Shown here: positions 30,292 through 33,425 of the stretch, piece after piece
Layout of the letters: every line of letters starts with the position of its first letter
Position numbering within the stretch: position 1 is the stretch's first letter
Source: an uncultured bacterium
Lineage (GTDB): Bacteria; Elusimicrobiota; Elusimicrobia; Elusimicrobiales; Elusimicrobiaceae
Direction of reading: 5' to 3'
Length of the DNA stretch: 64,000 bases
NCBI GenBank assembly: GCA_949296525.1
Contig: CASFOP010000004.1
Coordinates: 62,001-126,000, forward strand
Made by a program: the position numbers and the translations under genes
Notes under the pieces: generated by a model
Told to the model about the DNA's origin: nothing
The model's database searches: none
What the model saw: only the letters and a program-made list of their open reading frames with translations

Positions 30292-31289
30292 TGTATTTCG
30301 CGCTCCCGCACCAGGATGCCGTCCGACAAAATGCGGAAGGTTGCTTTGCCGCTGTACGAGATTTCCAAATCTATCTTGCTGCCGGGCTGTTTACTTTCGT
30401 TGATGACTTCGCGCTCGCCGTTGTCGTCAATGAGCACAATGCGTACGCGCATGGCTTTTTTACCCTGCGGCAGTTCATAATGCAAATGGTATATCTTTTC
30501 ATCTTCGGAAGCCTCGCGGCGGCTGACGGTTACTTCCAGCGCCGAACCGGGGGCCAGCTCACTGTCGGCCGACGGGCTTTGCTCCGCAATCGTGCCGTAT
30601 GGGAAGGGTGAGTGGGCATCTTCCTTTACGGTTAAATTCATATTCTGCTGGCTGGCCCAGAGAGTTGCTTCCGCCAGTTTTTTATTGCGGAAATCCGGCA
30701 CCAAAATCACGCTGGCCGGCGGCTGTCCGTTAGAGAGAGTCAGCGTTACTTTGTCTCCACGCGAAAGCATGCTGTCCGCTTCAGGTGCCTGGGAAATAAT
30801 CAGGCCTTTTTCCACCGTCAGAGAATAGGCGTTTTCCACTTTTTCCACCTGCAGGCCCGCCTGGCGTACAGCCAGCTGCGCCGCGCGCAGGTCCAGCCCT
30901 TCCACGGACGGGACAAACACCATTTCATCTCCCTGGGAAATCCATACGCGGATGACGCGCCCTTCGCGCACGGTGCTGCCGGCGGAGGGGATTTGGCGCA
31001 GGACGGAGCCGGGGGGGACATTGTCAGCAAATTCCAGGCCGGCCTGCTTCATGGCCAGGTTGACCGAAGCCAGCGAGTTCAGCGCTGCGGTAACGGGTTT
31101 TTTGGTAATATCGGGCACCTGCACTTCCTGACGGGTATGCACCATGGCCCCCATAACCCAGTCAATGGAAATAAAGATAAGTAATACAAAAAAAACAAAA
31201 ATCACGCCCGCTATAATCCATTTGGTGCGGGAGGAATTTTTTGTTTTGCCGATAAATTCTTCAAAACTGATGTCTGTATTTTTAGCCAT
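30288..31289 (-). CDS. Membrane-anchored PASTA-domain protein
   Basis: 333 residues. A cytoplasmic tail of about 22 residues, one membrane helix (23-45), then three PASTA domains (about 55-125, 126-195, 196-262) marked by QVPDITKKPV, FVPSVEGLDLRAAQ and LVPDFRNKKLAEA. A further beta-rich C-terminal part follows. PASTA domains bind muropeptides/lipid II in Ser/Thr kinases and some PBPs; here no kinase or transpeptidase domain is attached. Probably an envelope sensor or scaffold. Overlaps fmt by eight bases. Confidence 0.88.
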   Translation of the reverse strand: MAKNTDISFEEFIGKTKNSSRTKWIIAGVIFVFFVLLIFISIDWVMGAMVHTRQEVQVPDITKKPVTAALNSLASVNLAMKQAGLEFADNVPPGSVLRQIPSAGSTVREGRVIRVWISQGDEMVFVPSVEGLDLRAAQLAVRQAGLQVEKVENAYSLTVEKGLIISQAPEADSMLSRGDKVTLTLSNGQPPASVILVPDFRNKKLAEATLWASQQNMNLTVKEDAHSPFPYGTIAEQSPSADSELAPGSALEVTVSRREASEDEKIYHLHYELPQGKKAMRVRIVLIDDNGEREVINESKQPGSKIDLEISYSGKATFRILSDGILVREREIQ

Positions 31290-32253
31290 GAAAAATAAAC
31301 ACCTCCGTGCCGGGTTTAATGCCGTGGCCGTTGGCGTACGCCGCCGCGGGCATGGGCTTTTTGCCGGCCGGATGCACCTGCGTAATCCAAATACTTCCTT
31401 GTTTACATTTTACTAAAATTCCGTTTGGGCTTTCAACGCGCAGCACCGTCCCGGCCCGGACTGCCGCATCGGCCGGGGGTTCCGGCCCGTCCGGCAGGCG
31501 CGTGCGCAGGATTTGCAGCGGCTCTTCTTTGCCGTGCAAACAGATGCTAGTTCGTGCCTTGGGGCCGCAGGCCAGCCCGCGCACCCTATGGTGTATTTCT
31601 TCAGCTGCCATGGTGTCAAAACAAATCAGCGCGCCTTCTTTTTTAATCATGGGGGCCAGGGTGGGCTCGCCCGTCTGCGGGATTTTAATGATTTCGCCCG
31701 CTTCCAGGCGCGTAAGGGTTTCTTTTAAAGCTTCCAGCCCCAGCGGGATTAGTTTGCCAAACAGGCTCTGGGCGTCGTCCTGCGGGTCTATGGGAATTTC
31801 TTTTTGCAGGAAAAGCGGGCCATCGTCCATGCCCGGGGCGATCCAAAACACACTGACGCCCGTTTTGGAAAAGTTATTAAATAAGGAATGTTGTACCGGC
31901 GCGGCGCCGCGCAAAAGCGGCAAAAGCGAAAAATGCACGTTTAAAAAACCCGTCTTGGCCAGGGCCAGAAAGTCGGGGCGGAAAATTTTGCCAAACGCCA
32001 CCACCACACCGATATCAAAAGGAATGTTTTTTACTTCTTCGTAAATATCTTTTAGTTTGTCCGGCGAGCGTACCGGCAGGCCCAGCTCCAGCGCGCGGCT
32101 TTTGACGGGGCAGGGGGTAATGACCATGCCGCGCCCGCGCGGTTTGTCGGCCTGCGTAACGACCAGCTGCACGTCGGTCAGTTCATGGGCCAGCTCCAAA
32201 TACGGCACGGCGATGTCCGGCGTGCCGAAGAAAATCGTTTTGAGTTTGTTCAT
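31282..32253 (-). CDS. fmt: Methionyl-tRNA formyltransferase
   Basis: 323 residues. Fmt formylates initiator Met-tRNA with 10-formyl-THF. The N-terminal block is IFFGTPDIAVPYLE, the folate-binding site is NVHFSLLPLLRGAAPVQ with the catalytic Asn-His pair, and the C-terminal domain contacts tRNA. The usual partner def (peptide deformylase) is not in the window. Start at 32253. It opens a leftward operon with the PASTA protein and rpe. Confidence 0.95.
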   Translation of the reverse strand: MNKLKTIFFGTPDIAVPYLELAHELTDVQLVVTQADKPRGRGMVITPCPVKSRALELGLPVRSPDKLKDIYEEVKNIPFDIGVVVAFGKIFRPDFLALAKTGFLNVHFSLLPLLRGAAPVQHSLFNNFSKTGVSVFWIAPGMDDGPLFLQKEIPIDPQDDAQSLFGKLIPLGLEALKETLTRLEAGEIIKIPQTGEPTLAPMIKKEGALICFDTMAAEEIHHRVRGLACGPKARTSICLHGKEEPLQILRTRLPDGPEPPADAAVRAGTVLRVESPNGILVKCKQGSIWITQVHPAGKKPMPAAAYANGHGIKPGTEVFIFHG

Positions 32254-32284: not shown

Positions 32285-32315
32285 TTGATAAAAAAAGAAA
32301 TTTTTGGAATAATAT
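32285..32315 (+). promoter_or_regulatory. Possible promoter for structured RNA/outer-membrane gene
   Basis: TTGATA (32285-32290) and TAATAT (32310-32315), 19 bases apart, in an AT-rich stretch between divergent fmt and the beta-barrel gene. A start near 32322 would place an AGGAGG without any reading frame at the extreme 5' end of the transcript. Confidence 0.35.
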
Positions 32316-32321
32316 ATTTGT

Positions 32322-32587
32322 TTAGGAGGTTGTGCAGTAAAAGATAAGCCTTAAACGCGGCTTATATACAATTTGGTTCTGTTTTTGGAATCGCGCTTCG
32401 GCGCGAAGAGCTTTTGGGAATCAAAGGCGACTTATCTCTCCAAAAACGGCTCGTTATGAGGCAAACAGTAAACGGACTAATTACCCGGTTGCTGTTTGCC
32501 GAGTTCTTGTTGTGTATATACACGGCAAGGCACGGCTGTTGCATTTTGGGTAAGAGATAAGTGCTCAAACGTAACGGCCGTTTTTAT
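32322..32587 (+). ncRNA. Candidate structured RNA with pseudoknot and terminator
   Basis: A 370-base gap without a gene folds strongly. Hairpin ATAAGCC/GGCTTAT (32344-32365). A nine-base-pair stem 32381-32389/32439-32447 encloses two hairpins: six base pairs with a UUCG tetraloop (32391-32406) and seven base pairs (32410-32428). Then a nine-base-pair stem 32460-32468/32492-32500. A ten-base perfect complement, ACTTATCTCT (32430-32439) and AGAGATAAGT (32553-32562), would form a pseudoknot. An eight-base-pair stem 32533-32540/32573-32580 is followed by TTTTT. G-U pairs and the UUCG orientation favour the + strand. It does not match tmRNA, RNase P or 6S motifs I know. Confidence 0.45.
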
Positions 32588-32623
32588 CGGTCAAAAAAGC
32601 CAACTTACATAACGAGGTATCCA

Positions 32624-33373
32624 ATGAAAAAAGTATTATGGGCTGTATGTTTGGCCGTTCTGGCCGCGCCGTCCTGGGCTGAGCCATATGCTCCTTCCCA
32701 GTATGCGCCCGTTCAATATGTTCCGGTGCAGTATGTTCCGGCTCAGTATGTTCCGGCTCAGTATGCTCCTGCCCCGGCAGCGTCTGCTCCCGCCGCTGCA
32801 GAATATGAAACGGCGCCTGCGGTACGGAAGCGGAATTTGTTTTCCCTGGGGGCAGGTCTGGTTATTCCTACGGGAAATGTGATAGAGGAAGGAGACCTGT
32901 CTCTAAAAGCAGGCGGGCCCGGGGGCGGGATAGAACTGCAATATTTAAATTTTCTGAATGAACGCTTTGCTTTGGGCGTGGAGTTTGGCGGTACGGTGCT
33001 GACGGAAGAAACAGAAAACTATTATGGGTATGAAATCAAAACCAAGAGCCAGACCTTGCACGGCATGATATCCGGGCGTTTATATGTTAATCCAAATAAC
33101 AAAAATTTAGTGTATGTCCCGTTTGGTGTGGGATTTGTGCAGGGGGAACTGGATTGGGATATTTATACAGGAGGAGTGAAGAGATTGGTATTGAATGATT
33201 TTTCAGATACGGCCCCTGCGGGTTACATCGGCTTGGGGGTGGAATTGGAAAGGACAGAAGAAAGCCTGATTTCATTAGAAGCCCGGTATCACATGGCGTG
33301 GTTTCGTAAAAGCGGTATTAGTGCCACCTACAGCTATGTATCCATTATGTTAAAAGCAGGCGGTCTTTTTTAA
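32624..33373 (+). CDS. Outer-membrane beta-barrel protein with QYVP repeats
   Basis: 249 residues. Signal peptide cut after SWA (residue 19). Residues 20-50 are a chain of QYAPVQYVP-type five-residue repeats, then a Pro/Ala linker. From about residue 68 the sequence alternates in the way of an eight-stranded OmpX/OmpA-like barrel (LGAGLVIPTGN, GVEFGGTVL, GYIGLGVELE) and ends on an aromatic residue (GGLF), as expected for BAM-dependent insertion. Ligand or role unknown. Its leader contains the structured RNA described above. Confidence 0.8.
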   Translation: MKKVLWAVCLAVLAAPSWAEPYAPSQYAPVQYVPVQYVPAQYVPAQYAPAPAASAPAAAEYETAPAVRKRNLFSLGAGLVIPTGNVIEEGDLSLKAGGPGGGIELQYLNFLNERFALGVEFGGTVLTEETENYYGYEIKTKSQTLHGMISGRLYVNPNNKNLVYVPFGVGFVQGELDWDIYTGGVKRLVLNDFSDTAPAGYIGLGVELERTEESLISLEARYHMAWFRKSGISATYSYVSIMLKAGGLF

Positions 33374-33390
33374 TATAAGAAAATATATTT

Positions 33391-33425
33391 AAACGGCCCG
33401 TTTTATAAAGAAACGGGTCGTTTTT
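33391..33425. terminator. Bidirectional terminator
   Basis: AAACGGCCCGTTT and AAACGGGTCGTTT form a stem with a seven-base loop and end in a T-run. It separates the convergent beta-barrel and MATE genes. Confidence 0.85.

Follow-up and report, generated by a model that had tools for sequence, protein, structure and literature searches.

In transcriptional riboswitches and attenuators, one strand is shared by an upstream stem and by an antiterminator that excludes an intrinsic terminator. Lambda boxB, EAR, and put are antitermination RNAs promoting read-through, and the cyclic di-GMP riboswitches (GEMM) are leader RNAs found before pilin genes. An RNA comparable to these is described here from a 64,000-nucleotide stretch of DNA from an uncultured bacterium of the Elusimicrobiaceae (contig CASFOP010000004.1, positions 62,001–126,000; called the window below). 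The element at 32322–32588 on the + strand of the window is a genuine structured RNA, as a preliminary description of the stretch had observed. Very probably, it is the leader of a beta-barrel gene and belongs to an undescribed family of transcription attenuators, in which a stem named P2 and the terminator stem alternate with an antiterminator.

Like transcriptional riboswitches and attenuators, this leader has one strand, the 3′ strand of P2, that is shared by the upstream stem and by the antiterminator excluding the intrinsic terminator. Unlike them, it shows no conserved ligand pocket, the base of its antiterminator is a hypervariable helix of 9–10 base pairs (bp) private to each copy, and up to about 50 copies per genome stand on functionally mixed surface genes. 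The location before type IV pilin genes at several unlinked places is reminiscent of GEMM, but the secondary structure differs and Rfam gives no match to GEMM. With boxB, EAR, and put, it has in common that it is a leader RNA and carries a pentaloop of GNR(N)A type, here on hairpin P2a, although neither a conserved boxA nor a partner protein was identified and this loop type is not universal. A reported motif, a weak riboswitch candidate, has a pseudoknot at the terminator loop, which complements an upstream strand and is proposed to prevent the terminator (PMC11109978). The same kind of complementarity is found here; unlike in that motif, which was compared by description only, the pairing is supported by covariation and nests with an antiterminator that is longer than itself. 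The private hypervariable antiterminator base, the copy number, and a palindromic loop set the family apart from known leaders.

The RNA family is previously uncatalogued, and the terminator/antiterminator leader mechanism itself is of a known kind. As the preliminary description had expected for an RNA of no known family, the scan that it proposed, run with Rfam 15 at gathering and relaxed thresholds, yielded nothing beyond chance matches and ones lying outside the element, and no above-threshold match overlaps a copy. No description of the family was found in the open-access literature, subscription journals and bioRxiv lying largely outside that search.

Covariation and Predicted Strand Exchange

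All of the stems drawn in the preliminary description, including the UUCG-capped hairpin and the two-branch junction, were found where it had placed them, and its choice of the + strand was borne out. The + strand of 32322–32600 folds at -101.5 kcal/mol (z -5.9); its dinucleotide shuffles average -73.5 ± 4.7, and not one of 200 equals it. The minus strand reaches a z of only -3.2. The structure consists of P2 with two hairpins, P2a and P2b, on its top, followed by P3, P4, and the terminator stem P5, plus a helix referred to as the “knot,” 84 pairs in total, and was examined in an alignment of 37 copies. Standard pairs fill 90.0% of the cells (75.0% in shuffles), two-sided changes occur in 64 of the 84 pairs (45.9 in shuffles), and two-sided cells number 451 against 134; when the structure is slid along the alignment, 39–45% of the cells are paired, far below the true register. 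All stems are supported by compensatory changes among homologous copies. P2 (32379–32389/32439–32449; 5′ strand CUGUUUUUGGA) is paired in 98% of cells, and the lower stem of P3 (hairpin at 32460–32500) in 97%, with compensatory changes in 11 of 11 pairs. Two-sided changes are seen in all pairs of P2a (32390–32406; 7/7; UUCG loop in the window copy), P2b (32410–32428; 8/8), and P4 (32504–32530; 14/14).

The “knot” is formed by ACTTATCTC at 32430–32438 and GAGATAAGT at 32554–32562, the latter inside the loop of P5. All nine pairs show two-sided changes, with up to five pair types per pair, and 90% of the cells are paired. The cognate duplex has a median of -12.1 kcal/mol, compared with -1.9 for non-cognate combinations of the 193 copies, and the own loop is the best partner among all 193 loops in 176 of them. 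With 1.66 bits of entropy, the “knot” varies more than any other segment. Highly variable as well are the joint J2a/2b (1.44 bits) and the loops of P2a and P2b (1.3–1.4 bits), and conserved segments are limited to P2 (0.17 bits), P5 (0.28 in its outer part), an unpaired ACAAUUU (32368–32374; mean 0.48 bits), and the joint of P3 and P4. A conserved ligand-binding core was not found, the three-way junction and the loops being variable across copies. In the best-scoring copy, L041:244-470, the 5′ strand ACAUUCUGAG mismatches its own loop UUAGGGAAAAUGG and fits another loop type, which may reflect recombination between copies or a chimeric assembly. “Knot” sequences can be unique within a genome (20/20 in G071); this does not speak for an avoidance of cross-pairing, non-cognate pairing being equally weak within and between genomes.

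The core of the switch is a strand with two partners. The 3′ strand of P2, UCCAAAAACGG, together with its flank CUCGU (32439–32454), can pair with either the 5′ strand of P2 or that of P5. In most copies, the P2 3′ strand and flank read AACAGYCGU and can pair with the terminator's 5′ arm, ACGGCUGUU. Therefore, P2 and P5 are mutually exclusive with a longer third helix, in which the 5′ strand of P5, ACGGCUGUUGCAUUUUGGG (32532–32550), serves as the 3′ arm of the antiterminator. This helix is paired in 96.7% of cells and is nested with the “knot,” whose 5′ strand ACUUAUCUC and 3′ strand GAGAUAAGU form the base of the antiterminator; combined, they make one stem of about 23 bp around P3 and P4. 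The ten-base pairing in the preliminary description thus exists, and it would amount to a pseudoknot solely in a molecule that keeps both P2 and P5. Rather than competing with the terminator loop, as suggested there, it is better read as the base of the antiterminator, which extends the helix between the P2 3′ and P5 5′ strands. The P2/P5 core hardly varies because any change would have to involve four strands at once. An extension of the antiterminator by CCAAA:UUUGG was also considered and turned out not to be general, several copies having no such pairing.

Divergent copies of other genera and families differ in the sequence of both strands and yet remain complementary, for example, as AAAUAAUCGU/ACGAUUAUUU in L100 and as AAACAGUCGC/GCGGCUGUUU in L039. 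The antiterminator duplex in these lineages has a cognate mean of -12.3 kcal/mol, compared with -8.5 ± 0.9 when lineages are permuted (0/20000) and -5.5 for shuffled strands.

Predicted folds agree with an exchange during transcription. In minimum-energy folds of 190 full-length copies, P2 is found in 91% and P5 in 92%, and 7% contain the antiterminator; in transcripts cut just before the P5 3′ arm, P2 falls to 3% and the antiterminator with the nested “knot” rises to 95% and 94%, respectively. If either “knot” strand is shuffled, the antiterminator goes down to 64–67% and P2 is back in about a third. In the window copy, the best fold contains P2 for transcripts ending up to 32560, the antiterminator for ends from 32562 to 32574, and P2 with P5 from 32576 on. 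Across copies, the antiterminator arises at a median of 41 nucleotides (nt) before the last base of P5, and P5 overtakes it at a median of 2 nt before that base. P5 (32532–32581) ends in the 3′ strand CUCAAACGUAACGGCCGU, which with the U-tract constitutes a predicted intrinsic terminator (32564–32585); the T-run (TTTTT, 32581–32585) stands 37 bases upstream of the ATG at 32624, as had been noted before. At least four U in the first five nt after P5 are found in 93% of the copies. As in an attenuator, a predicted intrinsic terminator lies between the promoter and the gene, and a conserved alternative helix is predicted to exclude it.

The order of events would most likely be as follows. During transcription, P2 with P2a and P2b would form first, then P3 and P4. 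The emerging 5′ arm and loop of the terminator would invade P2 via two toeholds, the UCGU flank and the 9–10-nt strand between P2b and P2, and build the long antiterminator helix enclosing P3 and P4. Subsequently, the emerging 3′ arm of the terminator would reclaim the 5′ arm, P2 would re-form, and the polymerase would stop at the U-tract before the gene. The polymerase covers the last ~8–10 nt of its RNA, and the predicted balance point of the two forms probably lies close to the arrival of the polymerase at the U-tract. Since the predicted forms are balanced there, slightly stabilizing or weakening either P2 or the long helix could be enough to set read-through. The analysis shows the family itself, the covariation of its helices, the conserved and mutually exclusive alternative pairings, and the placement in front of genes. 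From these we infer that termination takes place, that events in the cell follow this order, which way control runs, and that leaders dimerize (see below).

Several points weigh against this interpretation. Termination, read-through, and start sites are predictions only. In the main family, the helix between P2 3′ and P5 5′ strands is too invariant for significant covariation, and 67 of 500 shuffles reach its value. Its support in divergent lineages comes from 9–15 copies with strands delimited by hand, and permutation of lineages leaves shared ancestry in place. The folding follows nearest-neighbor thermodynamics, with neither kinetics nor pseudoknots.

A Multi-copy Family in Elusimicrobiota and Its Downstream Genes

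The preliminary description had made itself dependent on homologous sequences and covariation, and both exist. A DNA search of relatives matched 27 of 61 genomes, frequently at more than one place. A covariance model of 226 positions, built from the 37 copies, was run on 66 genomes of the window's genus and detects the element in 63; phylum-wide, it does so in 100 of 340 genomes and 12 of 100 genera. The matches are concentrated in the window's family, in which all of the 18 genomes listed for a second genus (g15) have the element, and in a distant family, f21, with an Endomicrobia metagenome-assembled genome (MAG) as its named member. Among the named records listed, true matches are Elusimicrobiota MAGs, mostly from gut and rumen. 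As a control, 147 genomes from the order of a Clostridia MAG with a pattern match gave a single covariance-model match of 23.5 bits; accordingly, matches below ~30 bits, such as those in G323 and on contig C5 of the window's genome (G000), were taken as unreliable and excluded. The pattern matches in that Clostridia MAG (L197) and in a groundwater Elusimicrobia MAG (L181), both without a covariance-model match, were rejected as chance.

Genomes harbor 1–52 copies (>100 bits), with the maximum in a 1.5-Mb MAG (JAIRMX..., G344), and identity between copies is mostly 60–75%. The window's own genome has four good copies. The fourth of them, G000:C8:90774-90990 (L136:2275-2491), scores 80 bits, is followed directly by no clear gene with a Shine-Dalgarno (SD) sequence, and may be decaying. 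Copies are sometimes found close together, as in L096 (1268–1465 and 1501–1704, a direct tandem), L076 (1501–1728 and 2710–2935), and L232 (1–232 and 2922–3136). Short divergent relatives of ~180 nt (L097, L099, L100, L101, L102, L103, and L113) carry one hairpin in place of P3 and P4; their P2 and P5 sequences are largely different and the logic of four strands is retained. Because these relatives lack P3, P3 appears to be an addition to the switch.

Distinct same-strand open reading frames (ORFs) with an SD follow 178 of the 190 copies that have enough downstream sequence, and 88% of them start no more than 100 nt after the element (median distance 41 nt). About 101 of the 178 are type IV pilin-like (motif FTLIELLVVVLI...), and Pfam N_methyl was confirmed in 4/4 pilin-like proteins tested. 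The remainder includes glycosyltransferases (families 8, 2, and 9), outer-membrane protein beta-barrels, lipoproteins, polysaccharide pyruvyl transferase, DNA methylases (EcoRI-type and N6_N4), a type I restriction R-like protein, and an SNF2-domain protein. The association with a beta-barrel gene in the preliminary description holds in the window and is not specific, over half of the family's downstream genes being pilin-like.

A -10-like hexamer is located 20–75 nt upstream of P2 in other copies. Many pilin copies have this box just ~25–30 nt before P2, which would leave no room for a leader peptide. Non-pilin copies often have a -10 box ~69 nt before P2 together with an optional 5′ hairpin, P1 (AUAAGCC-UUMAACGY-GGCUUAU), whose loop is conserved; 24 of 28 classified copies with P1 precede non-pilin genes. 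As P1 is almost confined to non-pilin copies, there are two leader sub-classes.

Elusimicrobiota do not have flagella, and pilins are the sole cell appendages in Endomicrobiaceae (PMC11257099). The leaders would constitute a large undescribed cis-regulatory RNA family, carried by almost all genomes of a single gut genus and also by distant relatives, and give access to the question of how Elusimicrobiota regulate their numerous paralogous pilin genes and further surface genes. They would also provide an example of a switch by strand exchange in which no strand of the four can change alone.

Self-complementary P3 Loop and Possible Inputs

The apical loop of P3 is palindromic over 4 nt or more in 173 of 182 copies, and in 123 the palindrome reaches 6 nt. 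Nine different 6-nt palindromes occur (UAAUUA, UUAUAA, UCAUGA, UUGCAA, UUCGAA, UCUAGA, UAGCUA, CUAUAG, and AUUAAU), of which several consist of A and U only. Among the distinct P3 loops of at least 6 nt, 19 of 29 have a 6-nt palindrome compared with 1.75 expected (maximum 6 in 500 shuffles); the P2a, P2b, and P4 loops have none of that length. The palindrome, 4–6 nt long, varies and stays palindromic, as expected of a kissing loop, which suggests that P3 loops may form kissing dimers between leaders. In the window copy, the loop is ACUAAUUAC, with UAAUUA at 32478–32483 as a candidate dimer site. The dimerization initiation site of HIV-1 has a kissing loop with a 6-nt palindrome (PMC7357161). 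The P3 loop is alike in being often 9 nt long in a 2+6+1 arrangement (AC-UAAUUA-C, CC-UUAUAA-C) with a palindrome free to vary; unlike the HIV-1 site, it belongs to a bacterial leader, some copies have a 4-nt palindrome only (GAUC, AGCU), many palindromes are of A and U only, and the dimer is predicted. The self-complementarity through nine hexamers makes RNA–RNA dimerization in bacterial attenuation directly testable.

A protein, an RNA–RNA contact (the dimer), and an intrinsic kinetic switch are all candidates for what controls the leader. Tentatively, dozens of leaders per cell could dimerize via P3, nascent with nascent or nascent with released, so that leader concentration feeds back on termination. 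It is an equally speculative thought that, in such a phylum-specific network, private antiterminator “key” helices combined with few shared types of P3 loop coordinate a large set of pilin and other surface genes without any metabolite ligand. The preliminary description had seen a layout expected for a riboswitch or attenuator. The layout stands, strand sharing being that of transcriptional riboswitches, and a small molecule could bind the three-way junction of P2, P2a, and P2b with its GNRA-like loops, stabilize P2, and favor the terminator; furthermore, one leader type on many unlinked genes resembles second-messenger riboswitches. However, J2a/2b and the P2a and P2b loops are highly variable and among the less conserved parts, which disfavors a classical metabolite pocket, the targets (surface, glycan, and restriction genes) belong to no single pathway, and no Rfam riboswitch matches, so that a metabolite riboswitch, although it might have a minimal pocket, is rather unlikely. 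Binding of a protein or a processive-antitermination factor to P2a or ACAAUUU, setting read-through, is possible, if doubtful. ACAAUUU and P2 rank with the best-conserved segments, and P2a loops are mostly boxB-like GNRGA pentaloops (GAAGA, GCAGA, GUAGA, GCGGA, GAGGA, and GUGGA in many copies), P2b loops being mostly GNRA-like. But P2a is capped by UUCG in the window copy and by GAAA or AAG in some further ones, loops resembling GNRA occur widely among structured RNAs, and no partner gene was found, none having been sought. Similarly improbable as the metabolite reading is an attenuator free of any dedicated signal, in which polymerase speed, pausing, temperature, or Mg2+ sets low or noisy expression of paralogous surface genes. 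The nearly balanced predicted forms at the decision point, the variable-surface type of the targets, and the absence of a conserved pocket fit it, whereas the conserved ACAAUUU, the P3 palindromes, and the kind of loop on P2a hint at something beyond simple strand exchange.

Readings that detach the RNA from the downstream gene fare far worse. A stand-alone trans-acting small RNA, sitting before genes by chance, would be consistent with a self-complementary P3 loop and with a predicted termination releasing a stable RNA of ~265 nt with its own promoter and terminator. It is very improbable given the same-strand ORFs after nearly all testable copies; copies read by eye show no obvious second promoter in the gap between element and gene, and a conserved antiterminator would be purposeless. 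Dozens of dispersed copies per genome, a patchy distribution across the phylum, and occasional tandems recall a mobile repeat, like a miniature inverted-repeat transposable element, with incidental structure. Near-identical copies with defined ends would be expected of such a repeat; instead, the moderately alike copies carry compensatory changes and have a fixed placement between promoter and SD, and none was detected in viral contigs with the pattern used, making this the least credible explanation.

Promoter and Gene at the Window Locus

In the window, the probable attenuator is preceded by a sigma-70-like promoter, TTGATA-17-AATAAT (32285–32313, + strand; 10/12 matches), with TG before the second hexamer, and transcription probably starts near 32320. 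The transcript would then carry P1 (AUAAGCC/GGCUUAU, 32344–32350/32359–32365, loop UUAAACGC). After the terminator, an SD-like AACGAGG (32611–32617) precedes the predicted regulated gene (32624–33373, + strand), which encodes an outer-membrane beta-barrel protein of 249 amino acids (Pfam OMP_b-brl, E 8e-8). The upstream gene on the opposite strand (31282–32253) is presumably that of methionyl-tRNA formyltransferase, going by its translation. Directly after the beta-barrel gene, there is a terminator-like hairpin (33391–33423; 14 pairs with a T-rich tail), and the gene is therefore probably a single-gene unit.
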